Source: a virus. From it: a stretch of 23,555 nt of DNA. The notes under the pieces were generated by a model. It made no database searches. It was given only the letters and a program-made list of their open reading frames with translations, and was not told the origin of the DNA. The stretch lies in IMG/VR virus record IMGVR_UViG_3300044655_001457, positions 1 through 23,555 of that record; one strand, 5' to 3'. Below are positions 6,587-23,555 of the stretch, one piece after another (the first letter of the stretch is position 1; each line of letters begins with the position of its first letter). A program made the translations under genes and the position numbers.

Positions 6587-7048
6587 ATGGCAAACGGAAT
6601 TACATATGGTTTAAATTTCCCATTAAGACAGAGTCTACAGGGAAAATATGTTTCATTAACACAAACACCGGATGAGGAAATAAGGGCTAATCTTGTTCAC
6701 CTTTTATTAACAAGAAAAGGGTCAAGATATTATCTACCTAATTTTGGAACTAGACTTTATGAATACATTTTTGAACCTTTGGATGGGGATACGTTTTCAA
6801 CACTTAGAAGTGAAATAGAAGAATCAATTTCAACATTTATTCCAAATTTAACTATACAAAATATAAGTATTGAGCCATATGTAAATGCGGAACCATCTTT
6901 AGGTGAATTAGTTGTGCCTGAGCAAGACATTCCTGTTTATGCGGTACCAGGGGCTAATACTGAAGAATACACCGCAAAAATAAAAATAGAATATATTGAC
7001 GAAAGTAGTGCTTTCGGTACAAGACAATTCGTTATTATCAATTTATAA
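6587..7048 (+). CDS. Baseplate wedge protein, gp25/gpW-like
   Basis: Conserved core protein of contractile-tail baseplates; in T4 and related systems gp25 joins the wedge to the sheath start and helps trigger contraction. The family signature is clear in residues 26-70: TPDEEIRANLVHLLLT followed by RKGSRYYLPNFGTRLYEYIF and then EPLD. The length of 153 residues is slightly above T4 gp25 (132), the excess being a C-terminal strand-rich part that ends in RQFVIINL. The start ATG 6587 has an AT-rich leader with no Shine-Dalgarno. It opens the structural block just after the terminator and is followed 3 bases after its stop by the gp6/J-like gene, in the order W then J known from P2. Historical labels of gp25 as a lysozyme are not supported by catalytic evidence. 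Confidence 0.9.
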   Translation: MANGITYGLNFPLRQSLQGKYVSLTQTPDEEIRANLVHLLLTRKGSRYYLPNFGTRLYEYIFEPLDGDTFSTLRSEIEESISTFIPNLTIQNISIEPYVNAEPSLGELVVPEQDIPVYAVPGANTEEYTAKIKIEYIDESSAFGTRQFVIINL

Positions 7049-7051
7049 AAC

Positions 7052-8893
7052 ATGGCAAATAGAAGGATAGCTTACACTGATAGAGATTTTGAAGCACTAA
7101 GACAAGATCTAATCGATTACACACAACAGTATTATCCAGAGTTAATACAAAATTTTAATGATGCTTCCGTTTTTTCTGTTTTGATGGATTTGAATGCTGC
7201 AATAGGGGATAATTTACATTTCCATATCGATAGAAGTATTCAAGAAACTGTGTTACAGTTTGCACAACAGAGATCATCAATATTTAATATAGCCAGAACC
7301 TACGGTTTAAAAGTACCTGGGTTTAGACCTTCAGTTGCACTTGTAGATATATCAATTACAGTACCAGCATTTGGAGATTCTGAAGATGTAAGATACCTTG
7401 GAATATTAAGGGCGGGTGCGCAATTTAATGGTGGTGGTACAACATTCGAAACTGTATATGATATTGATTTTTCAACACAATTCAACAGAGAAGGATTTGT
7501 AAATAGAACAAAAATTCCACAGTTTAGTGATAACAATTCTGCACCGACAAGTTATATTATTACCAAAAGAGAAATTGTCGTTAATGGAAGTACACAAGTT
7601 TTCAAAAAAGTTATTACACCTGCTGAAGTAACACCATTTTACGGTTTCTTTTTACCTGAAAAGAATGTATTAGGTGTAACTTCTATTATACAAAAAGACG
7701 GAACAAATTACCAATCTACACCATCTTTTTCCGAGTTCCAAAGTTCACCAAATAAGTGGTATGAAGTAGATGCGTTAGTTGAAAATACGGTTTTTATTGA
7801 AGACCCAACAAAACCAGTTGATGAAGCTGGTGTTAAAGTTGGTAAATATATCAAAACAGATAATCGTTTTATCACTGAATATACACCTGAAGGGTTTTTA
7901 AGAATTCAATTTGGTAACGGTACTGTAACACCTGAAGAGCAGTTAAACCAATTTACCACTACAGGAGTTCCACTTACTATACAAAATTATCAAAATAACA
8001 TAGGGTTAGGATTAACCGTTAAGGCTAACACTACAATATTTGTACAGTATAGAACAGGTGGTGGATTAGCTAGTAATGTTGGGGTAGGGTCAATAAATCA
8101 AGTTGGATTAGTTGATTTTGCGGTCAATGGTCCATCTTCTGTTATTAACAATAATGTAACACAATCAATACGTGTGAGCAATGTTACTGCTGCGATAGGT
8201 GGAGCTAACCAACCCTCAGTGAATGAAGTTAGAAACATGGTTACATATAACTTTGCGGCACAAAAAAGAGCAGTAACTATAAATGACTACAAATCTTTAA
8301 TAGATACTATGCCTGGTCAATATGGTGCTCCTGCTAAAGTTTCTATAACGGAATTCAATAATAAAATTTTAGTTAAAATATTATCTTTTGATACTCAAGG
8401 AGCGTTAACTCAAATAGTCTCTAATAATTTGAAAACAAATTTAGCAACATATCTATCCAAGTATAGAATGATAAACGATTATATATCAATCGAAGTTGCG
8501 AAAGTTATAGATTTAGAATTTGAGTTTTTTGTTGTTTTAACCGCTGCTGGATCACAAAGCCAAGTAATCACTCAAATAATTAACAATGTCACAAACTATA
8601 TGGCACCATCAACAAGGGAACTTGGAGAAAATGTTAATGTATCCGAAATAAGACAATTAGTACAAAGTATTGAAGGTATTAATAGTTTGGCAGAAATAAG
8701 AGTATACAATAGGGTTGGTGGTCAATACTCTTCTTCCGAAACATCACAAAGATATATCGACAATAGTACTAAACAGATTGAATTAATTGACGATACTATA
8801 TTTGCAGAACCAGACCAAATTTATCAAATCAGATTCCCAAATAAGGACATAAAAGTTAGAGTTAAAAATCTAACTAGTGTAGATTTCATGTAA
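7052..8893 (+). CDS. Baseplate wedge protein, gp6 / gpJ-like
   Basis: Main wedge protein expected to form the inner dodecameric iris of the baseplate. The N-terminal region matches the family: TDRDFEALRQDLIDYTQ, then a helical DLNAAIGDNLHFHIDRSIQE segment and QQRSSIFNIARTYGLKVPG (about residues 8-90). The middle has the typical RIQFGNGTVTPEE loop (about 285-297) and the hallmark QYRTGGGLASNVGVG at about 332-346, followed by RAVTINDYKSLI (about 408-419). The length is 613 residues, close to T4 gp6 (660). The C-terminal third is alpha/beta, as in the J family. It begins 3 bases after the gp25-like stop, in the same frame. No Shine-Dalgarno is present. Assignment to the Baseplate_J family is firm; one-to-one equivalence with T4 gp6 is an inference from order and size. 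Confidence 0.92.
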   Translation: MANRRIAYTDRDFEALRQDLIDYTQQYYPELIQNFNDASVFSVLMDLNAAIGDNLHFHIDRSIQETVLQFAQQRSSIFNIARTYGLKVPGFRPSVALVDISITVPAFGDSEDVRYLGILRAGAQFNGGGTTFETVYDIDFSTQFNREGFVNRTKIPQFSDNNSAPTSYIITKREIVVNGSTQVFKKVITPAEVTPFYGFFLPEKNVLGVTSIIQKDGTNYQSTPSFSEFQSSPNKWYEVDALVENTVFIEDPTKPVDEAGVKVGKYIKTDNRFITEYTPEGFLRIQFGNGTVTPEEQLNQFTTTGVPLTIQNYQNNIGLGLTVKANTTIFVQYRTGGGLASNVGVGSINQVGLVDFAVNGPSSVINNNVTQSIRVSNVTAAIGGANQPSVNEVRNMVTYNFAAQKRAVTINDYKSLIDTMPGQYGAPAKVSITEFNNKILVKILSFDTQGALTQIVSNNLKTNLATYLSKYRMINDYISIEVAKVIDLEFEFFVVLTAAGSQSQVITQIINNVTNYMAPSTRELGENVNVSEIRQLVQSIEGINSLAEIRVYNRVGGQYSSSETSQRYIDNSTKQIELIDDTIFAEPDQIYQIRFPNKDIKVRVKNLTSVDFM

Positions 8894-8928
8894 GATTATT
8901 TATTTTACAAAATGACATACTACTTTTA

Positions 8929-8949
8929 AAATAGTCAATTTGACTATTT
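8929..8949. repeat. Inverted repeat in the gap before the giant virion protein gene
   Basis: AAATAGTCAA (8929-8938) and TTGACTATTT (8940-8949) are perfect reverse complements around one central T. As RNA the likely form is an 8-bp stem with an AATTT loop. A T-rich stretch, ATTTTT, follows. It could be a weak terminator between the gp6-like gene and the next gene, or a dyad operator. It overlaps the candidate promoter motif at 8943-8951. Confidence 0.55.
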
Positions 8950-8951
8950 AT
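8943..8951 (+). promoter_or_regulatory. ACTATTTAT motif before the giant virion protein gene
   Basis: Second exact copy of ACTATTTAT, 14 bases before ATG 8966. It forms part of the right arm of the inverted repeat at 8929-8949, so its role as a promoter cannot be separated from that of the dyad. The 72-base gap from 8894 to 8965 holds nothing else recognised. Confidence 0.3.
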
Positions 8952-8965
8952 TTTTAAACGATACT

Positions 8966-11900
8966 ATGTCCAAAAGCTATAGAATTAGAACAACACCTGG
9001 AATTGATAAAAACATCAGAATCGATATTCAACAAGATTTTGACTTGATTGAAATTTTATCATTAAAATTAAAACAAGAAGATGTTTATACTCGTTTTTGT
9101 GCCGATTATGGTGTTGTAGTTGGAAGAGTAATTGCGAATGGTGGGTACGGTGTACCAAACGTATCAATATCAGTATTTGTACCTTTAACGACTGAAGATG
9201 AAAATGACATTGTCATTTCAACCCTTTACCCATATAAAACGGTTTCAGATAAAAATGATGAAGGTTACCGTTATAATCTTTTACCTTATGTCCAAGAATA
9301 TGGTGGACACACACCAACCGGTACTTTTCCTGACATAGAAGATGTCTTGAACAGAAAAGAGGTCTTAGAAGTATATGAAAAATACTACAAGTACACTGTA
9401 AGAACTAATGAAAGCGGAGACTTTATGATAGTTGGTGTACCACTAGGAATTCAGACAGTGGTAATGGATTTAGACCTCTCAAATATAGGATGTTTCTCAC
9501 AAAGACCCTCAGATTTAGTTAGACAAGGTCTTGGTGTTGAATCACAATTTGCTGGACCCAATTTTAGATCATCTGAAAATTTAGATTCATTACCTCAAAT
9601 AGTAAATCAAGCAAAAGATGTTGAAGTCGCATCGTTTTGGGGTGAGGAAAATATATGTAACGTAGGTATTACGAGAATTGATTTTGACTTAAGAGATTCG
9701 GGTATAGAGATTCAACCACAGGCAATCTTTATGGGGTCTATATTTTCAACAAGTGAAGAGGATACCTTGAATGTTAATTGTAAACCAAAGTTCGATTCAG
9801 GTAATTTATGTGATTTAGTTACCGGTGCGGGAAAAATTTTAGCATTAAGACAAACAGTCTTCAACGATAGCCAAGGATTACCTGTATTAGAAGAATATAA
9901 ATTTCAAGATGGTGGAAATGTAATTGATGATAGTGGAACTTGGTTAGTGGAGGTACCTATGAATTTTGATTATGTTAGCACAAATGAATTCGGTGAGCAA
10001 ATAATATCAAATGACCCAACAACAGGTATACCAACTAAAGGTAAATATAGGTTCAGAATCCAATATCAAAATGAAGATGGTGAAGAGAATAATGCAATGA
10101 GGGCCGATTATCTCGTCCCAAATATTAAAGAGTATGGTTGGTCTTTATCACAAAATGAAGAACCTACAGATGATACTTTACAAAAACAATCATATGCCTT
10201 TAGTCTAGATTGGAACGATTACGGTGATACTGCTACAACAATTGGTAATCTTATGATACAAGAAGCTATCAATTGTGAAGATAGATTTTTTGAAATGAAT
10301 TTTAATCGTGTCTACACGGTTGCAAATTTTATTGATAGGTGGAAATGGGGGTACAATAGGGCTAGACATTTAGGAATAAAAGAAATAACAGATAGGAGTT
10401 GCTCAACAACCACAAACAGATTTCCCGTAAACGACGGTGTTAGGAACTTCGATTTTATTTATTTCCTATTCAACTTACTTATTACAGTTTTATCACCTGT
10501 ATTCGCCACAATTATAGTATTACTACATGTCGCCGCATTTTTGTACCCAATTGTGGTTAGGTTTGTAAATAAGTTAGTTGATTTTATAAATGGAGTTGTA
10601 TATCAAATTTGTAAAGCAATAAATTGGCTTACGAACGGAAACAAACCGGTGGGTGGATGTAACACAGAAACTTTAGAAAAATTGTCTGAAAACAACCCCT
10701 TCAAAAGAATATCATTACCCATGATGTCCTACCCCGATTGTGAGGCTTGTAATTGCGAGGATGCATCTTTGGATGCTAATGTTAATTTCAACCCTTTTGC
10801 AAATTTTGGGGTTAGTGAGGGTAACTATAGTCAATTAATAAATTCAAACTCATTATCATCTTTCGAAGGACTGGTTATAAGTCCAAATGCGAGTGAAGGT
10901 GAAAATAACGGATTGAGACAAGCGGTTGCTGGTTACCAATATTTAGACGGTTCTAATTTAGGTGTTAATAATATGGACCCTAAGTTGGCTAGATTACCAA
11001 TAGTAGAAATCCCAAATCAAGGTTCGAGTTATAAGTATTTAGGAAATGATGTTACATTATCTCAGTCATTAAACATGGCTAACTTAAGAGCTAGATATTT
11101 TGAAGGTGTAAATGTTATTAGAACAACAGTTTCAAACACAATACCTAATGGAACTCAAGTATTTCCTTCACAATCTTTCACCGATTCAGTTCTTATGGTT
11201 GTCTGTGATCCAGGAACTCTCCAATTACTATTAGCTGGAGATTTAATTAGTTTTCATGATACTACAAAAATTAATGACCCTAATCTAACAGGAGCAACAC
11301 TAAATCAATTCGATACGACTAGTGTAACTGGTACTACGAACCCAAATCAAAACGTCTTAATATCTAAAACAGTTTCATACATAACAACAGGTGGTACCGT
11401 TAGTAGTGCTAACTTATTATTGAAAATAACAGAAGATGGTAAGGCTTATAATTTTGTTGCCGGTAATGAATACTTCCAAGTAATTACAGGAGGGACTGTT
11501 ACACAATTTTCAGCAGCAACAAATGCTAATTCTATTAATTGTCTACTCAACAAATATTTATTTAACAAAACACAAAGAGTTTATTACGCTAACCCTTTAG
11601 CTCAAACATATTTGGCGAATCCACTCACGGCTTACGATTTATTTCAAGACCAAGAAATTATATTCATGTCTAGAGGGGTTGACCCGTACACACAAAAGCA
11701 AAATATAAAATATGACCTATCAGTTCTTTTTGGTTATGGATTTAATCAAGGACCTGTTGTTCAAGGAAGTTATTATTTGAATATACCAATAAAACAGAAC
11801 TCCAATACCATTATATCCAACAACAGTTGGAGAAATGACTATATCACACCTGAAAGTCACCAAGTTACAAACAATCTAAATACAGTTCTATATCATGAAC

Positions 11901-14323
11901 CGTATTCATTTGTAATACAAACACCATTCAGTTCATTTACTAACAACATAGTAAAATATTATAATTCTACTGATAAATCTAGACTAAATAGTCTTGCTTG
12001 GGTTGGTGATTCATTTGATTTAAGTCAATTTACATCACCTGCGGGTGTTTATTCAGATATCGCATGTAATGGTACAGAATTAGGTAAAAGTACCATAGGA
12101 TTTCAATACGGATCTTCGCAGTCATCCACACAAACTTATACTTGGTTTTACAACCCAACCGCTTATGCTTTTCCTAATAACGCTCAAGCTTCTCAATACG
12201 GTTTAACTGTAAACTGTTTTCCAACTATCACCGGTATACCATGTAACTTTGGTATTGGTGCAGGGGCTTGGGAAAATTATGGAACATTTGGACCAAGTGT
12301 TGTCACAACAACACCTGGCGTAAATATAGGTGACGTATTTTATGAAACATATATTGGTCCAAATAACCCTGGAAATGTCCCATTGACCGCTCAGTTTAAT
12401 AACACAACAAACGAATATATGTGGTACGGTATGCAATATCAGTATTACGACCCAACTACGAATCAACTTTTATGGGATGTTGGTGTATCAGTACAGATAG
12501 GTTTAGGTGGTGTAGTATTAGATGTCGTTGTAATGGCTGGTGCATGGCAGGGGCAACTATCACTTTGTGCTACATCACCACAAGGTCACATTGAAGGAGG
12601 TACATTACTTGCGGGATATGAACCACAAGAGGTGTGGATGCCACAACTACAACAAAATAGACATAGTAGGACTTTCTCACCGGCATACCATTTAGATTAC
12701 ACACCTACGGTTCAAATGATAAGTCAAACAAGGCTTGTTTTGAGATCCGATAGATTACCAACATCAGATATAGTTGATGTATCAGGAAATACGTCTTTTT
12801 CACTTCATCTTAACAATAAATTCTTGATGTATAAATTAACGGATGAAGGTGACGTAACTGTAGTACCTAAATTTGACATGCAACCAACTGATAATACAAA
12901 TAACTTATTAGATTTTGAAGATGACAATACGGGTATAAGTGACGCTGTTTTGGGTTCATTAACTTGTGACCAATTAACATTATTAGAATGTTATTCAGGT
13001 AGTGGTGAAAATTTCGGAGTAAAACAACCATGTGCTGCAAATTTCCCAACAAACCCTGAAAAAACAAGGGTTAAAGGTGGGTGTTATTATTTTGTACAGG
13101 ATAAATTATTTAAAACAATAAAAGACGATTTCAAATACTTAGCAGAATGGAAGGCAAGATTTAGATTTGTATTTGGTGCTTGTCGAGGAGTAATTAGTCA
13201 CGTATTTCAAAATAATTGGGTAAATGGTACCCTTTATAGTTTTTCTTTCAGAAAACAAACAATTTTTGATAGTGCTGGTAATGTAAAAAAATATAAGTTT
13301 TGTGGGACTAAAGACCCTGTATTAATCCAAGTTACAACAAACCAAGGACCTATTTATTTTGATGAAGATAGATTTTCTTTTTTCTATCGATCAACACCAT
13401 TCGATTACTCAACAGGTCAATTTATAGGTCAACTTCCTATGAAGAAAAATTTATTGAATAATAACTGGGAACCCGTAGGTCCTGTATATAAAGGAATGAA
13501 CAATAGAAATTTGTTCTTCCCTACCACTATCATGGACTTAGGACCTAGAGACAAATTTGCAAAAGAAATATGTTTGAATCCACAATTGGAAGGTTATTTA
13601 GTAGATACATTAAAAAGTACGAGTTATAACGAAACTAGTGACATACTTTTGTTCGCTATCTTATCAAGGTTACTTTCTACATCGTTCGCTCAAAAAATAT
13701 TTGGTGCTGGTGATGCTTCCATAAACACCTTGTTTTCTAGAACCGAAGATAGGATAGACGGAGATATTGCACAAATGTTTAGTATAAATTCAGAATATGG
13801 AATATTACCTTTTAATGATGAGTTTTATGACGATAATGATATATATTTAGCTACAAACACAACTGATGGTGCATTGATAGGGGCGTTATTCTCAGCGATA
13901 ACTGAAAATAGAATAAGACTAACACCCGGTACTATAACTTTTGGTAACGTAACACAAACAGTTGGTTACCCAAAAACCCAAGTCGTACCGATGTATAAAT
14001 GGATTAAAGACGGAAATACACAACCACAAACAATTTTAGGAAGTGAAGAAAATGAATGGTACACGTCTTTTGACGCTAACAACGGTTATTATACTGCACC
14101 TTACCAAATTATGAGTTTCAATACTACAGATTACTTCCAATCAACTAATGGTCCGTCAACGGGTTATATTTATAACTATAATAATAACGGAGTCCCTACA
14201 TTTGCCCCGTCAGTTAACCAAACATCAAATAGATTTGTTGTTGGGGCACCTTACCATTTCTATTTTGGACTTAATAAAGGAAAATCTGCATTGAACAGAT
14301 ACATTACAAAATACTTAGTATAA
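8966..14323 (+). CDS. Giant virion/baseplate protein (1785 residues), gp7 position, unknown family
   Basis: Probably a structural tail or baseplate protein, judged by position directly after gp25- and gp6-like genes, its size and its Asn/Thr/Tyr-rich composition; the family is not recognised. Residues about 48-170 read like a carboxypeptidase-regulatory or Cna-B-type beta-sandwich (VVGRVIANGGYGVPNVSISV, later TNESGDFMIVGVPLG). A strongly hydrophobic segment spans about 497-531 (FIYFLFNLLITV, ATIIVLLHVAAFLYPIVV) and continues into an amphipathic helix to about 555. A small Cys cluster follows at C565, C592, C595 and C597 (DCEACNC). The remainder, about 600-1785, looks strand-rich, with a more conserved-looking part near 1370-1590 (AEWKARFRFVFGACRG, PTTIMDLGPRDKFAKEICLN). 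T4 gp7 (1032 residues) is the positional counterpart, but no sequence match can be shown. ATG 8966 lacks a Shine-Dalgarno; the gene ends with tandem TAA TAA directly before the next ATG. Confidence 0.75.
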   Translation: MSKSYRIRTTPGIDKNIRIDIQQDFDLIEILSLKLKQEDVYTRFCADYGVVVGRVIANGGYGVPNVSISVFVPLTTEDENDIVISTLYPYKTVSDKNDEGYRYNLLPYVQEYGGHTPTGTFPDIEDVLNRKEVLEVYEKYYKYTVRTNESGDFMIVGVPLGIQTVVMDLDLSNIGCFSQRPSDLVRQGLGVESQFAGPNFRSSENLDSLPQIVNQAKDVEVASFWGEENICNVGITRIDFDLRDSGIEIQPQAIFMGSIFSTSEEDTLNVNCKPKFDSGNLCDLVTGAGKILALRQTVFNDSQGLPVLEEYKFQDGGNVIDDSGTWLVEVPMNFDYVSTNEFGEQIISNDPTTGIPTKGKYRFRIQYQNEDGEENNAMRADYLVPNIKEYGWSLSQNEEPTDDTLQKQSYAFSLDWNDYGDTATTIGNLMIQEAINCEDRFFEMNFNRVYTVANFIDRWKWGYNRARHLGIKEITDRSCSTTTNRFPVNDGVRNFDFIYFLFNLLITVLSPVFATIIVLLHVAAFLYPIVVRFVNKLVDFINGVVYQICKAINWLTNGNKPVGGCNTETLEKLSENNPFKRISLPMMSYPDCEACNCEDASLDANVNFNPFANFGVSEGNYSQLINSNSLSSFEGLVISPNASEGENNGLRQAVAGYQYLDGSNLGVNNMDPKLARLPIVEIPNQGSSYKYLGNDVTLSQSLNMANLRARYFEGVNVIRTTVSNTIPNGTQVFPSQSFTDSVLMVVCDPGTLQLLLAGDLISFHDTTKINDPNLTGATLNQFDTTSVTGTTNPNQNVLISKTVSYITTGGTVSSANLLLKITEDGKAYNFVAGNEYFQVITGGTVTQFSAATNANSINCLLNKYLFNKTQRVYYANPLAQTYLANPLTAYDLFQDQEIIFMSRGVDPYTQKQNIKYDLSVLFGYGFNQGPVVQGSYYLNIPIKQNSNTIISNNSWRNDYITPESHQVTNNLNTVLYHEPYSFVIQTPFSSFTNNIVKYYNSTDKSRLNSLAWVGDSFDLSQFTSPAGVYSDIACNGTELGKSTIGFQYGSSQSSTQTYTWFYNPTAYAFPNNAQASQYGLTVNCFPTITGIPCNFGIGAGAWENYGTFGPSVVTTTPGVNIGDVFYETYIGPNNPGNVPLTAQFNNTTNEYMWYGMQYQYYDPTTNQLLWDVGVSVQIGLGGVVLDVVVMAGAWQGQLSLCATSPQGHIEGGTLLAGYEPQEVWMPQLQQNRHSRTFSPAYHLDYTPTVQMISQTRLVLRSDRLPTSDIVDVSGNTSFSLHLNNKFLMYKLTDEGDVTVVPKFDMQPTDNTNNLLDFEDDNTGISDAVLGSLTCDQLTLLECYSGSGENFGVKQPCAANFPTNPEKTRVKGGCYYFVQDKLFKTIKDDFKYLAEWKARFRFVFGACRGVISHVFQNNWVNGTLYSFSFRKQTIFDSAGNVKKYKFCGTKDPVLIQVTTNQGPIYFDEDRFSFFYRSTPFDYSTGQFIGQLPMKKNLLNNNWEPVGPVYKGMNNRNLFFPTTIMDLGPRDKFAKEICLNPQLEGYLVDTLKSTSYNETSDILLFAILSRLLSTSFAQKIFGAGDASINTLFSRTEDRIDGDIAQMFSINSEYGILPFNDEFYDDNDIYLATNTTDGALIGALFSAITENRIRLTPGTITFGNVTQTVGYPKTQVVPMYKWIKDGNTQPQTILGSEENEWYTSFDANNGYYTAPYQIMSFNTTDYFQSTNGPSTGYIYNYNNNGVPTFAPSVNQTSNRFVVGAPYHFYFGLNKGKSALNRYITKYLV

Positions 14324-18036: not shown

Positions 18037-18945
18037 ATGGCATTAGGATCATATGGTACGATAAGACCCGCAGATGTTTCACCATCAGATGTTGAGATAT
18101 TATTACATTATTCACCATCTCGTGATGTTACGTCTAACTTTGTGTTAAAAAAGTTAGATGCAACTACAATTTTAACACCTTATTTTCATAACACACAAAC
18201 AGGTGGAAATAATAATATTGAAATTTTAGGAGGTCTTTATAATTTGAGATTACCTGCAACCGAATTCAATGCTGTTGGTATTTACACACTATACATTAGA
18301 CCTGCTGAAATAAGAACAAAGATAACTGATTGTGGTGTATTATCTGCATTACCAAATGTTAAGGGTATTATAATTGATATTAATCAGGTACCGCAACAGT
18401 ATAGAAATAAATTTGTAAACCAAGGTTTGGTTGGATTTAGAGTTGAATATTTGAATAACGACGGTACCAAAATACCTAATTTTTATAGAATTGTGACTTC
18501 TTCATTTTTTTGTGAACCTGTCGTATCTGACCAAACTAATACTACACAAAAATCTATTAGATATAGGTATGTTGAAGGATCAAGTGATTTGTTATTTTGC
18601 ACACTTTCACCTAGCTCGTCACCAACAAATAAACCTAATGCTACACCATTTATTGGTCAGCCTAATCAGAATATTATAATTACTAACACATTTTTCAATC
18701 CACTTAGTTTAGATATACAAATTTCAAATTATGATATTGACACATTGGCAATTGCGTTGTACGGTAATCAAACTAAGTCAATAGAAGATGGTGTCTACAC
18801 TCTTTATGATAGTGCAGGTAACATTTATAAACAATACAACCTATTTGAAGTTAGAGATAACTTTAATGAACTTCTTTATGAAGTTAGACAGGATAGAGGT
18901 ACTAATATCGACTTTAGTAAAAACTTTACAAATATTATTAGTTAA
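18037..18945 (+). CDS. Virion protein of unknown family, 302 residues
   Basis: Not recognised. The N-terminal hundred residues look like a beta-sandwich: SDVEILLHYSPSRDVTSNFV, then GGLYNLRLPATEFNAVGIYT and LYIRPAEIRT. A central alpha/beta part follows (VKGIIIDINQVPQQYRNKFV, about 108-127), then RVEYLNNDGTKIPNFYRIVT. The C terminus has another strand-turn unit (IEDGVYTLYDSAGNIYKQYN) and a charged end with NELLYEVRQDRGTNIDF. No membrane segment or signal peptide is seen. It is the only gene in the 14-22 kb part with a clear gap and a candidate promoter motif in front. Its stop overlaps the next start as TAATG, tying it to the tail protein I-like gene; T4 gp53 or gp8 roles are conceivable but unsupported. 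Confidence 0.68.
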   Translation: MALGSYGTIRPADVSPSDVEILLHYSPSRDVTSNFVLKKLDATTILTPYFHNTQTGGNNNIEILGGLYNLRLPATEFNAVGIYTLYIRPAEIRTKITDCGVLSALPNVKGIIIDINQVPQQYRNKFVNQGLVGFRVEYLNNDGTKIPNFYRIVTSSFFCEPVVSDQTNTTQKSIRYRYVEGSSDLLFCTLSPSSSPTNKPNATPFIGQPNQNIIITNTFFNPLSLDIQISNYDIDTLAIALYGNQTKSIEDGVYTLYDSAGNIYKQYNLFEVRDNFNELLYEVRQDRGTNIDFSKNFTNIIS

Positions 18946-21900
18946 TGGCGGTTACAAAATATAAATGTCCAGCACCACCTCCTAACGGATCAGGTACTTT
19001 TTCCAATGAGTTAGTTGGGGTACAGTTAGTTACTGGTGGAGGACTGACGCAAGGTAATTTTCAATTTACATCTGCGATATATGAAAAAATTGATAGAAAT
19101 TTTGACACCGGTTTATTTTCAGACCCTTACACTCTTGAAAATTTAAAAATAGATTCTATTGAGCAAGCTAAAGTTATAATACAAAAAAACTTTAAGGTCT
19201 ACCCTAATTTTGATTTAGCACAAATAACTAATTACACTTTATACGGTTCTTTACAAAAAAGATTATCCTCTTCGATTACAAAAATAATTAATTTTTTTCC
19301 TGCCGCGATACAAATAGATTTCAAAAATTATAGTTTAAACACTGGATATACCGCATCTAATATTTTTTATGATACGGTAAGTAATGAAACTACTTTTGAC
19401 GTCGATGTACAATTTTTCAAGAATCCATTTGGAATTGATTATACAATTAATGCTGAACAAAATATTCAAGTTTTACCCTACAAAGTTAGTAAGTATAGGG
19501 ACCTTAAAACGTATTACGAAAGTTATTCACTCTATACTACATCATTCAATCAGGAGTACCCAATATTGGATTTGACCCCTACAACAACGTTAACTGCTGG
19601 TACCATACAAATAATAGTACAAGGTAAACCGTTTACTGGATCTGAAATAACTGATACAATAATCATCAAACCTAATAATTTAGTCACTGAGGAGGTTTTT
19701 AAAAACGATTTCGATGAGGTTGAAGACTACCTACTAAATAGAAAAGGGTTTCCTAAGTACACTGCTAAATTCCAATATCCTGATTACGATAGTAATGGTA
19801 ATTATACTATTTTTACTAAACCTGTTACTTGGAAACTTGACGGAGCATGGAACTTAGATATCACAACTACAAATTTTGATAACTACTTAACGACTATACA
19901 AGAAATTGCCGAATTAGTTGACCAGTTTAAAACTAATTTACTGAGTAGATTTTTAACTTCAGATTCTCTTAAGGAGTTCGACACACCTGACCAAAAATTA
20001 GAAAAAGTACTTCAAATATACGGTAGAAGTTTCGATGAAACAAAAAAGTTAATTGATGCGTTAGCTAACATGAACTCTGTCAATTATGTAACAAAAAATG
20101 ATATCCCAGACCAATTGTTATCGTATTTAGCAGAAACTTTAGGATGGAAAACTAATATTTCACCTATAACAACATTTGGTTTAAACCAAACAATATACAA
20201 TACTTCAAGTAGTGTAATTTATCCTGGACAGTCTAAAGAACAAACGCCAGAACAAGTAAATTTCCAATACTTTAAAAATTTAATTCTTAACTCAGCTTAT
20301 TTGTATAAGACAAAGGGTACTAGAAAGTCGATTGAGTACATCATGAGACTAATTGGGTCTCCCGAACAATTAATAGAGTTCAATGAATATATTTATTTGG
20401 CGGACCAAAAAATATCGGTAGATGAGTTTGAAACTCAATTTGCTCAAATATCAGGAGGTACAAAATTAGATAAAGTTACTTCGCTAAATTCTAATATACA
20501 GTTCTCAATTCAAAGTGTTAATTTTACGGGTTATGTTGCGAATTCTATAATCACTTCAGTAAATACTAATATTGGTGACTATCCTATATCATTAGAAACA
20601 GGTTATCCTGAAAGTGCAACAGAAACCGAAGACTATTTTTTCCAAAAAGGCGCGGGGTGGTTTGAGTCGACACCTGACCATAGATCGACAGAAGTAATTA
20701 ATTTTTCTACGTCTGAGATAAACCCACAGATTGCGGTTTTTTCATCGGTACTTACTCCATTCACATACGGTAAAGATTATTTAGATAGATATGAAAAATT
20801 CCCATTTTTAGATTTGGGATATAGATTAACAAGAACGGTAGATAACACTAAATCTTGGACAGAGAATCAACCTGAACTTAGAAAAAATACACAAAATTTT
20901 TCAGAGACTTTTTATTCAACACCAAATGAAGATTTAGTGGTGAATTCAAAAAACATGGAGTTATACCTTAATATGGGTCAAGGTATTACATATGACATAT
21001 GGGACATGTCTTCAAAATACGGTTACCCTATTCCAAATTCAGGTTTGACTGGACCATATCCTTCACCTGGTAATATAGATTGGACCGTAATAAATCCAAA
21101 ACCAAACCAAAAAACATTTCTAGAATTTGCACAAACATTCTATAATAATATGATTAATGTTAGAAATAGACAATGGATTTATGATGGAAAAACTGGAGGA
21201 TATCCAACCCTACAATATATTTTTTGGAAATATTTAGAGTCAACCCAAAATACTAATTTCCCATTTAATGATTTCACATATCAAAAAATGATAGACTATA
21301 CTCTTAACTTGGGTGATTACTGGGTGAGATTGGTTGAGCAATTTGTACCGGCAACCACTTTGTGGAATACAGGGCAAAAGTTTGATAACTCTATTTTCCA
21401 TAGACAAAAAGTTTCTTGGAAAAGACAAAGAGGGTGTACCTATGTTGGTATCGGAACGTTTACTCCCGAAACTAACCCTGAATTATTTTCCGTTTATCAA
21501 GGAGGTTCAGAGTCTTATGATTGTAGTGAGCAATCACTTAGTACGAATGTCATACAGTTTGACCCAATAGATTTATTATCAACTGAGACATATGAAACTA
21601 TAGTTAATCAAGGTATAGATCCGTTACAATGTAACAATAATACGATAGTTTCTACTTGGTATTTAGAGGTTGTTTTAACAAATCTTATAACAGGAAATGA
21701 ACAAGTTTTATTATTAGAACAAATTTGGATTGGCGATGGTCCACAGTCAATTGGTCAAACTAATGGGACACCATTAACTTTTGACATACTATTGGACCAA
21801 ACAATTAACGGACTACAGACTTTAGATTCTCTTGGATTAGGTTATAGTTTCGAAGGGGGAGTTTTGACTATTTACAATACAACGTGTTACGATGATTTTA

Positions 21901-21959
21901 TGAATAGTCAATTAACCATTAACTACATCTTAGATGTGACTGTTGAATGTATTAATTAA
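18945..21959 (+). CDS. Large baseplate protein with tail protein I-like region, 1004 residues
   Basis: Likely a baseplate wedge component that links the core to fibres. Residues about 332-490 resemble phage tail protein I: a helical run LLSRFLTSDSLKEFDTPDQK, a QIYGRSFDETKKLIDAL segment, DIPDQLLSYLAETLGW, and the typical YLYKTKGTRKSIEYIMRLIG at about 452-471, which corresponds to the KGT-R signature of that family. Around 770-830 lies a second aromatic helical region (LGDYWVRLVEQFVPATTLW, then FHRQKVSWKRQRGC). The N-terminal 330 residues and the C-terminal 170 (ending LDVTVECIN) are strand-rich and unrecognised. At 1004 residues it is several times larger than P2 gpI (about 176), so the I-like part is a module inside a larger protein. 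The gene overlaps the previous stop (TAATG) and is followed by the adhesin gene after 8 bases, as I is followed by fibre gene H in P2. Confidence 0.75.
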   Translation: MAVTKYKCPAPPPNGSGTFSNELVGVQLVTGGGLTQGNFQFTSAIYEKIDRNFDTGLFSDPYTLENLKIDSIEQAKVIIQKNFKVYPNFDLAQITNYTLYGSLQKRLSSSITKIINFFPAAIQIDFKNYSLNTGYTASNIFYDTVSNETTFDVDVQFFKNPFGIDYTINAEQNIQVLPYKVSKYRDLKTYYESYSLYTTSFNQEYPILDLTPTTTLTAGTIQIIVQGKPFTGSEITDTIIIKPNNLVTEEVFKNDFDEVEDYLLNRKGFPKYTAKFQYPDYDSNGNYTIFTKPVTWKLDGAWNLDITTTNFDNYLTTIQEIAELVDQFKTNLLSRFLTSDSLKEFDTPDQKLEKVLQIYGRSFDETKKLIDALANMNSVNYVTKNDIPDQLLSYLAETLGWKTNISPITTFGLNQTIYNTSSSVIYPGQSKEQTPEQVNFQYFKNLILNSAYLYKTKGTRKSIEYIMRLIGSPEQLIEFNEYIYLADQKISVDEFETQFAQISGGTKLDKVTSLNSNIQFSIQSVNFTGYVANSIITSVNTNIGDYPISLETGYPESATETEDYFFQKGAGWFESTPDHRSTEVINFSTSEINPQIAVFSSVLTPFTYGKDYLDRYEKFPFLDLGYRLTRTVDNTKSWTENQPELRKNTQNFSETFYSTPNEDLVVNSKNMELYLNMGQGITYDIWDMSSKYGYPIPNSGLTGPYPSPGNIDWTVINPKPNQKTFLEFAQTFYNNMINVRNRQWIYDGKTGGYPTLQYIFWKYLESTQNTNFPFNDFTYQKMIDYTLNLGDYWVRLVEQFVPATTLWNTGQKFDNSIFHRQKVSWKRQRGCTYVGIGTFTPETNPELFSVYQGGSESYDCSEQSLSTNVIQFDPIDLLSTETYETIVNQGIDPLQCNNNTIVSTWYLEVVLTNLITGNEQVLLLEQIWIGDGPQSIGQTNGTPLTFDILLDQTINGLQTLDSLGLGYSFEGGVLTIYNTTCYDDFMNSQLTINYILDVTVECIN

Positions 21960-21967
21960 TAAATAAT

Positions 21968-23555
21968 ATGGCGTGTATTAGTGGTTATACAAATGGTATA
22001 TACAGTTTTGTAGACTGTTGTGGAATTTATCGCAACGGTGTTTCGTCAGGAGAAACGGTTTGTTTGGATCAATCATACTCTGCAACGTCAATTAATATTA
22101 TTTATGATACTGGTAGTACCTGTACACAATCATGTAGCGGCACATCTTTTTTATCATATAGTTTTACGGTAACTGGTACATGTGACCAAGCAACAGGTTC
22201 TGTCACTTTTAACCCTAATGGAGGTTTTCCACCTTATACTATTGACCCTATTTTCCCAATAGGTCACTCGTTATCTGCAAAAACTGGCACAACTTCAATA
22301 TCATATACAGGACTTTCAGCTTCGACATACGTTTTCAGACTTAACGATAGTTTAGGTAACGTAAATTCAGAACTTTATATAAATGTATCAATAGGAAATT
22401 GTTATAGTGCAACTACAACTTCGGTAGGTGGTACAAACTGTGGTTTAAACAATGGTTTCATAATTGTTAGTGCAACAACAACATCTCCACCGTATGGAAT
22501 AGTTTTATACAAAGATGACGTTTTAGACCAAATACAATTTACTCAAACATTACCATATACATTCACTGATTTGAGTGATGGTATATTTTATGCAATGTTT
22601 TCAGATGCTAGTAGTGTTACCGCTAAAACTGAAAATGTCGTAATAAGTGCAAGTACAGAATTTGATTTTGGACTTTGGAAAGTTGATACATCTGAATGTT
22701 TAGTTGATAAAGGTAAAATTTCAGTAACGGGACAAACAGGAGTATGTCCTTATACATATCTATGGTCAAATGGACAAACAGGTCAGACAGTTACGGGGCT
22801 TACTGTTGGTGAATATTCAGTTACGGTTACAGATAGTAAAGGTTGTGAACTAACAAAAAGTATTTTTGTAGGGAACTCTGAAACTTTGGGGGTTGCTTTA
22901 ATAACGGGAACAAATCCTACTTGTTTTAGTAATAATGGTTCATTAGAATTAACTATAACAGGTGGTAGTGTACCATATTATTATTCTGCGTCTTCTGGAA
23001 ATATTGGAGTCACACTTTCAAATGAAATAACCCTAACTGGTTTAACTGCTGGTGATTATCAGATTACTATAAAAGACGGAAATCTTTGTACTTTAGATGT
23101 TATCACGGAACTAAACTCGGTAAATGGGTTCAAAAGGGTAACAAATACAATCACTAACTCAACGTGCTCTTTCGATAACGGTCTAGTGGAGACCGTCATA
23201 GAAGGTTCATACGGATTTTATCTTTACTCACTATCAGGTCAAAATACTAACAATGTATATACTAACTTTACTCAGGACCAAAATGTTACTTTTAGTAATT
23301 TAGAGAGTGATACCTACCTTTTAACTATATCGGGTTCGTCAAGTGAATGTGTTTATACTGAAACTTTAGAGGTTTTGTCTGAAAGTAAATTTACAGTAAC
23401 AGCAACTACAACACCATCTTACTGTGGATCTCAAAATGGGACAATATCTGTAGTTTTAAGTACTGGATATACAGAACCTATTGAATATGTTTTAAGTAAT
23501 GGCAACACATTACAAAATGTTAATTTTAGTTCATATACTTTTAATTTTTTAACAC
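21968..23555 (+). CDS. Tail adhesin/fibre with SprB-like repeats, 3' end beyond window
   Basis: An open frame of at least 529 codons runs off the window. It begins MACISGYTNGIYSFVDCCGIY without a signal peptide, which favours a virion protein over a secreted one. About six repeats of 75-86 residues can be aligned; each begins with a Cys near an NG or KG (C72, C158, C244, C319, C400, C486). The best copies show the SprB form: CPYTYLWSNGQTGQTVTGL then TVGEYSVTVTDSKGCE, and LTGLTAGDYQITIKDGNLCT. SprB repeats are known from the mobile gliding adhesin of Flavobacterium and other large surface adhesins of Bacteroidetes. Position after the I-like gene, where P2 has its fibre gene, supports a host-contact role. 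The ATG at 21968 has an AT-rich leader. Receptor binding is an inference; a structural neck-like role in the baseplate periphery is the alternative. Confidence 0.8.
   Translation, partial: MACISGYTNGIYSFVDCCGIYRNGVSSGETVCLDQSYSATSINIIYDTGSTCTQSCSGTSFLSYSFTVTGTCDQATGSVTFNPNGGFPPYTIDPIFPIGHSLSAKTGTTSISYTGLSASTYVFRLNDSLGNVNSELYINVSIGNCYSATTTSVGGTNCGLNNGFIIVSATTTSPPYGIVLYKDDVLDQIQFTQTLPYTFTDLSDGIFYAMFSDASSVTAKTENVVISASTEFDFGLWKVDTSECLVDKGKISVTGQTGVCPYTYLWSNGQTGQTVTGLTVGEYSVTVTDSKGCELTKSIFVGNSETLGVALITGTNPTCFSNNGSLELTITGGSVPYYYSASSGNIGVTLSNEITLTGLTAGDYQITIKDGNLCTLDVITELNSVNGFKRVTNTITNSTCSFDNGLVETVIEGSYGFYLYSLSGQNTNNVYTNFTQDQNVTFSNLESDTYLLTISGSSSECVYTETLEVLSESKFTVTATTTPSYCGSQNGTISVVLSTGYTEPIEYVLSNGNTLQNVNFSSYTFNFLT

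Follow-up and report, generated by a model that had tools for sequence, protein, structure and literature searches.

The SprB module builds the giant gliding adhesins of Bacteroidota, and its presence in a viral gene that lies next to baseplate genes raises the question of what such repeats do in a phage and how long they have been there. The window, i.e., the whole stretch of DNA that was analysed, is the IMG/VR virus record IMGVR_UViG_3300044655_001457, of 23,555 bases, and the SprB gene is its last gene. We consider it probable that this gene encodes a virion tail fibre or spike attached to the baseplate of T4-like phages, which themselves probably infect Bacteroidota, and that the protein consists of a shaft of seven Ig-like units with an optional tip.

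The SprB gene of the window

The gene and the parts of its product, all on the + strand, are the following:

21968..23554, +, SprB-repeat tail (fibre) protein, putative; ORF of 529 aa with an ATG start, 3' end cut by the contig end; PF13573, orthologues with the same neighbour
21968..22150, +, N-terminal Cys-rich domain, residues 1-61 (N-terminal profile match 5.2e-26, alignment)
22151..22390, +, repeat R1, SprB-type Ig-like, residues 62-141, anchor C72 (repeat HMM, alignment)
22409..22660, +, repeat R2, residues 148-231, anchor C158 (repeat HMM, alignment)
22667..22882, +, repeat R3, residues 234-305, C244/C293, the best conserved unit (repeat searches, alignment, conservation)
22892..23125, +, repeat R4, residues 309-386, C319/C374 (strongest Pfam SprB stretch)
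23132..23383, +, repeat R5, residues 389-472, C400/C461 (repeat HMM, alignment)
23393..23554, +, repeat R6, residues 476-529, C486, cut by the contig end (Pfam stretch 23399-23509, repeat HMM)

The 529-residue frame matched the Pfam family SprB (PF13573) in four stretches with 50.5 bits (cut-off 28, E 1.6e-13); a six-frame search of the contig also detected SprB, and none of 14 control genomes was positive. The first-pass annotation had counted six tandem Cys-anchored repeats, and a repeat HMM built from the family recovered the same number, i.e., five complete units and a sixth cut by the contig end. It had also read the units from about C244 and C319 as clear SprB repeats; these residues anchor R3 and R4, which are the clearest of all, and both are invariant across 35 aligned members of the family. 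Its remark that the protein has no signal peptide holds as well, since no hydrophobic stretch was detected by the Kyte-Doolittle scale in the window protein or in the tail-cluster relatives examined: the maximum value over 10 residues, within the first 35, was at most 1.89 in the family versus 2.6-2.9 in secreted controls. Likewise, a type A or type B C-terminal sorting domain of the type IX secretion system (T9SS) was found neither in the window protein nor in two full-length relatives; given that the C-terminus of the window protein is missing, this negative rests on the relatives.

A family with a fixed number of repeats

A first scan returned 7 related viral loci and a profile scan 361 confirmed relatives, 80 of which were kept; in total 86 loci were examined, corresponding to 83 distinct contigs after removal of duplicates. 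As many of the contigs hardly differ (79 full-length proteins leave 44 at <93% identity), the independent lineages are fewer than the contigs. The number of repeats is exactly seven in all 84 loci that are not truncated inside the array, including three in which the gene is cut further downstream. PF13573 was matched by each of 35 diverse aligned members (the next family by 18), and in profile comparisons all seven repeat positions matched one another at 94.6-99.6% probability. Every unit carries a conserved Cys anchor and five of the seven a Cys pair, with the first and second Cys of R3 to R7 invariant or nearly so.

Most full-length relatives have 710-1139 residues, with outliers of up to 2134. 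Their order of parts is an optional N-terminal Cys-rich domain, R1 to R7, an alpha/beta domain of approx. 120 residues, and then either a stop or extra modules. The Cys-rich domain is present in the sub-clade of the window and missing from the 711-residue forms, and the extra C-terminal modules are limited to a subset of this sub-clade, where they often stand behind Thr-Pro linkers and vary among members; such a tip is lacking in more than half of the family. The nearest relative of the window protein, in locus L094, is 79% identical across the 529 residues, and its tip is 57% identical to that of locus L005. Modular tail fibres with Thr-Pro linkers are known to combine a constant shaft with an exchangeable C-terminal tip; the proteins described here differ from them in that the shaft is made of SprB/Ig repeats and in that tipless forms predominate.

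Position in the baseplate cluster

The genes of the cluster that are needed for the argument are the following:

6587..7048, +, gp25-like baseplate wedge protein (PF04965, E 2.2e-11)
7052..8893, +, gp6-like baseplate wedge protein (phrog_219, E 4e-20)
18945..21959, +, conserved baseplate-cluster protein of 1004 aa, immediate upstream neighbour in all relatives (ORF, synteny)
21516..21956, +, C-terminal alpha/beta domain of the 1004-aa protein, homologous to the post-repeat domain of full-length SprB relatives (hhalign, HMM matches, models)

The SprB gene starts 8 bases past the stop of the 1004-aa gene, and the gp25 and gp6 genes are found further upstream in this cluster. A homologue of the 1004-aa protein adjoins the SprB gene in all 84 loci that show upstream DNA (82 distinct contigs), so the place of the gene within a virion gene cluster is a constant of the family. 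The first-pass annotation had put the gene directly after a 'tail protein I-like' gene; the position was correct, while the label corresponds to a sub-threshold match of a fragment of the 1004-aa protein to Tail_P2_I (PF09684, P2 gpI), with 14.5 bits, below the cut-off of 20.6, and E 0.03. The same stretch of this profile appeared below threshold in three of nine relatives, and the label would thus be a fair hunch and not a positive identification. No confident family or fold was obtained for the 1004-aa protein, its AlphaFold model being poor (mean pLDDT 55.5) and a fold search of the PDB giving no match. In the window, a further protein of the cluster, of 1785 residues (8966-14323), showed no Pfam or PHROG match. 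In one relative (L165, around 8445-9998) the 1004-aa homologue is split in two frames, the last piece of which adjoins the SprB gene; this may be a frameshift, a sequencing error or a real split.

A further relation between the two neighbouring proteins was found in their C-terminal parts. The profile of the alpha/beta domain matched the C-terminus of the 1004-aa protein with 95% probability in hhalign (E 2e-8), whereas non-overlapping segments of the same protein gave at most 1% and four repeat decoys less than 1%. In HMM searches 45 upstream proteins matched the domain directly (E<1e-3), and the AlphaFold models of both proteins show there the same order of helices and strands, E-H-E-E-H-E-E-E. 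Pairwise BLASTP of the SprB protein against its neighbour gave nothing convincing, and an earlier hhalign comparison with small alignments had reached only 29%; it was the profile comparison that did detect the homology. A domain common to two adjacent genes of the baseplate cluster is the strongest argument that sequences provide for joint assembly of their products. We infer that the domain aids assembly, and it could serve some other function instead.

Hosts of the phages and origin of the repeats

NrdA is nearest to the homologues of Cellulophaga and Tenacibaculum phages (approx. 40-42% identity, 552-585 bits, versus 306 bits for the next group), and gp6 is nearest, among cultured phages, to that of Flavobacterium phage immuto; for this reason Bacteroidota are the likely hosts of the clade. 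The phages with the SprB protein form a large, aquatic family with hosts that are probably Bacteroidota. Neither a homologue of the SprB protein nor one of its neighbour was found in the flanks examined of three phages that share gp6, i.e., immuto, LR756508.1 and Microcystis phage Mel-JY01, and a search of phage records for either protein gave no match except a secreted SprB protein of the metagenomic phage LR756502.1.

A scan of cellular genomes yielded at least 560 matching stretches, with E down to about 1e-45. The 79 cellular loci that were kept are nearly all from Bacteroidota by their titles, and the few that name other phyla are possibly misbinned; the matches cover mainly the repeat part, and none extends to the C-terminal tip. 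On this basis, homology between the phage repeats and those of Bacteroidota adhesins is firm: the repeat is the same by profile, with similar spacing and Cys anchors. The phage proteins differ from the gliding adhesins in that they have neither a signal peptide nor a T9SS C-terminal domain, in their location in a baseplate cluster, in the added alpha/beta domain, and in a count that is constant at seven versus up to 47 repeats in the sampled cellular ORFs.

The uptake of a host module had been part of the first reading, and here its two halves fared differently: membership of the SprB family is confirmed and a fibre-like role is likely, while recent uptake is not supported by the relations among repeats. 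The two outcomes that the first-pass annotation had named as contrary to its reading, absence of a profile match and a place outside any virion gene cluster, were both looked for, and neither was observed. For each of R1 to R5 of the window the best partner is the repeat at the same position in distant phages (47-94 bits), ahead of every sampled cellular repeat (33-72 bits) and of the other repeats of its own protein (25-41 bits); some members differ, e.g., for R5 of L008 a cellular repeat is closer. In the repeat tree the copies of R1 to R5 fall into five clades, one for each position (SH-aLRT 64-99). Since the repeats group by position across distant phages, the array would be old, and it was most likely assembled as seven units before the clade diversified. 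The phage repeats do not form a single clade (the best split holds 53 of 75, with a minimum of 6 changes), and a tree of units of 75-80 residues cannot settle whether they entered phages once or several times. The module may have been taken anciently from the pool of Bacteroidota adhesins, or be common to both, and then inherited vertically.

The nearest precedent is provided by the BACON domains of crAss-like phages, which are tandem repeats also present in Bacteroidota proteins, tied to tail proteins, and suggested to serve in host binding (PMC6949934). Both cases concern a tandem domain common to Bacteroidota proteins and phage tails, with a different domain family and a different phage group in each. 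The BACON array of crAssphage arose by sequential duplications within the phage (PMC6949934); in contrast, the seven SprB units are about as distant from one another as from cellular ones. Searches of an open-access library gave no account of phage tails with SprB repeats. The best viral structure match in BFVD, UniProt A0A6J5LD72 (714 aa, E 1e-55, with 30% identity almost from end to end), is a 'SprB repeat' protein of an uncultured Caudovirales phage and apparently a tipless 711-residue form of the same family; it is known by its database name only, its context, architecture and function not being described in the sources found. What the present family adds is a domain of Bacteroidota gliding/T9SS adhesins that seems to have become a permanent core part of the tail, with a repeat count that never varies, in a widespread clade of environmental phages.

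A proposed shaft of set length

The AlphaFold model of the SprB protein shows confident all-beta repeats, with a whole-protein pTM of 0.33, which is too low to define the geometry of the array. In Foldseek, the top PDB matches are to segments of the Aureispira (Bacteroidota) grappling-hook adhesin, GhpA, with 14-20% identity and low TM-scores, as would be expected for flexible arrays.

From these features the following course may be proposed. The protein would be made in the cytoplasm without export signals and assembled onto the baseplate, aided by the alpha/beta domain that it has in common with its neighbour. The seven Ig-like units would make up a rod of constant length that disulphides stabilise once the cell has lysed, and this rod would hold a tip, or fibres encoded downstream, at the host surface, leading to adsorption. 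The constant number of repeats, seven, agrees with a shaft of set length, and a conserved array with optional, variable tips seems to point to a shaft that carries the tip. Given that more than half of the members are tipless, receptor binding may lie elsewhere. Three kinds of product are encoded downstream in relatives: a glycosyltransferase, a protein with collagen repeats that matches PHROG tail fibres, and another protein in which one or two SprB units occur. The SprB tail protein offers a concrete target in the adsorption machinery of large, so far uncultured phages, parallel to BACON in the crAss-like phages.

Some of the downstream genes deserve mention in their own right. The second, shorter SprB protein, of about 530-545 residues and two units, lies in the fibre cluster of three relatives (L005 19337-20968, L007 19399-21015 and L098 18796-20391), and the copy of L007 also matches a PHROG virion structural protein. 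Shortly past the SprB gene, inside the tail-fibre cluster, there are a glycosyltransferase (PF11397) and other likely sugar-modifying genes (L007 13893-15149 and neighbours; L005 13267-17467), whose products perhaps glycosylate the fibres.

A different role for the array, suggested by the first-pass annotation, would be mimicry, in which the repeats themselves bind the ligands of the host adhesin, either surface polysaccharides or the gliding/T9SS apparatus, during adsorption. The repeats are true members of the SprB family, cellular repeats reach about 52% identity to R3, and it is at the same surface that phage and host come together; nevertheless, we regard this role as unlikely from the way in which the protein varies. 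Mean pairwise identity in the repeats is 37-59%, with R3 (59%) and R4 (50%) the best conserved, versus 45-71% by blocks in the upstream protein. The repeats evolve somewhat faster than this structural baseplate protein and are not hypervariable; rates near those of a structural neighbour are not the pattern of a host-range determinant, and the variation is located in the optional tips while the repeat count stays at seven.

Less probable still is that the array is a generic Ig-like decoration or spacer of the virion, as found on capsids and necks, which Pfam calls SprB by chance. Two virion proteins of solved structure were also touched by the profile, the neck-whisker protein 9occ (E 3e-4) and the phage decoration protein 5lxk (E 0.003). 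However, SprB is the sole family matched by all of the aligned members, the cellular matches concentrate on the repeats and, in the 79 loci kept, come almost entirely from Bacteroidota by title, and the gene is fixed in the baseplate cluster and not among head genes. That the protein is secreted to the host surface, as an adhesin or for superinfection exclusion, is barely credible: separate SprB proteins that carry signal peptides and T9SS sorting domains do occur in some relatives and in a 642-kb phage, but the tail-cluster members examined have no hydrophobic N-terminus, the window protein and the two relatives tested have no sorting domain, and the synteny with baseplate genes is invariant, with a domain common to one of them.

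Separate T9SS-type proteins in the same phages

The fibre or spike is thus the reading that we prefer for the gene of the window, and the exported proteins just mentioned form a distinct group. Sorting domains of T9SS type A or B, with scores that exceed the curated cut-offs, were found in proteins of three large contigs of the clade (G003, G007 and G008) and of the 642-kb phage LR756502.1, i.e., in 4 of 23 records searched, many of the remaining records being fragments. The loci of these proteins are:

L175 (G003:76000-86000), T9SS-domain proteins
L174 3892-9489 (G007), T9SS-domain proteins
L182 and L186 (G008), T9SS-domain proteins
L012 13711-18720 (LR756502.1), T9SS-domain proteins

Several of these proteins have signal peptides, and some carry SprB repeats (those of 1866 and 1675 residues). 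The cluster of G003 (76-82 kb) lies between genes that, judged from their sequence and not by a profile, look like those for phage heads and tails. The occurrence of separate T9SS clients in the same genomes suggests that these phages exploit a secretion system of the Bacteroidota type. It is possible, and put forward tentatively, that the SprB module serves twice: once as the seven-unit shaft of the virion, and once, where the genomes are largest, in proteins that carry signal peptides and T9SS domains and are exported to the surface of the infected Bacteroidota cell, where they perhaps alter adhesion or keep out superinfecting phages that use the same apparatus for docking.

In G003, three consecutive frames of 445, 189 and 199 residues (L175 3835-6319) each have their own signal-peptide-like start, and the third has a CHU_C/type B sorting domain at its end. 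The 445-residue frame starts much like the 1675-residue SprB protein of LR756502.1, and the three may represent either fragments of a single longer adhesin or a modular set.
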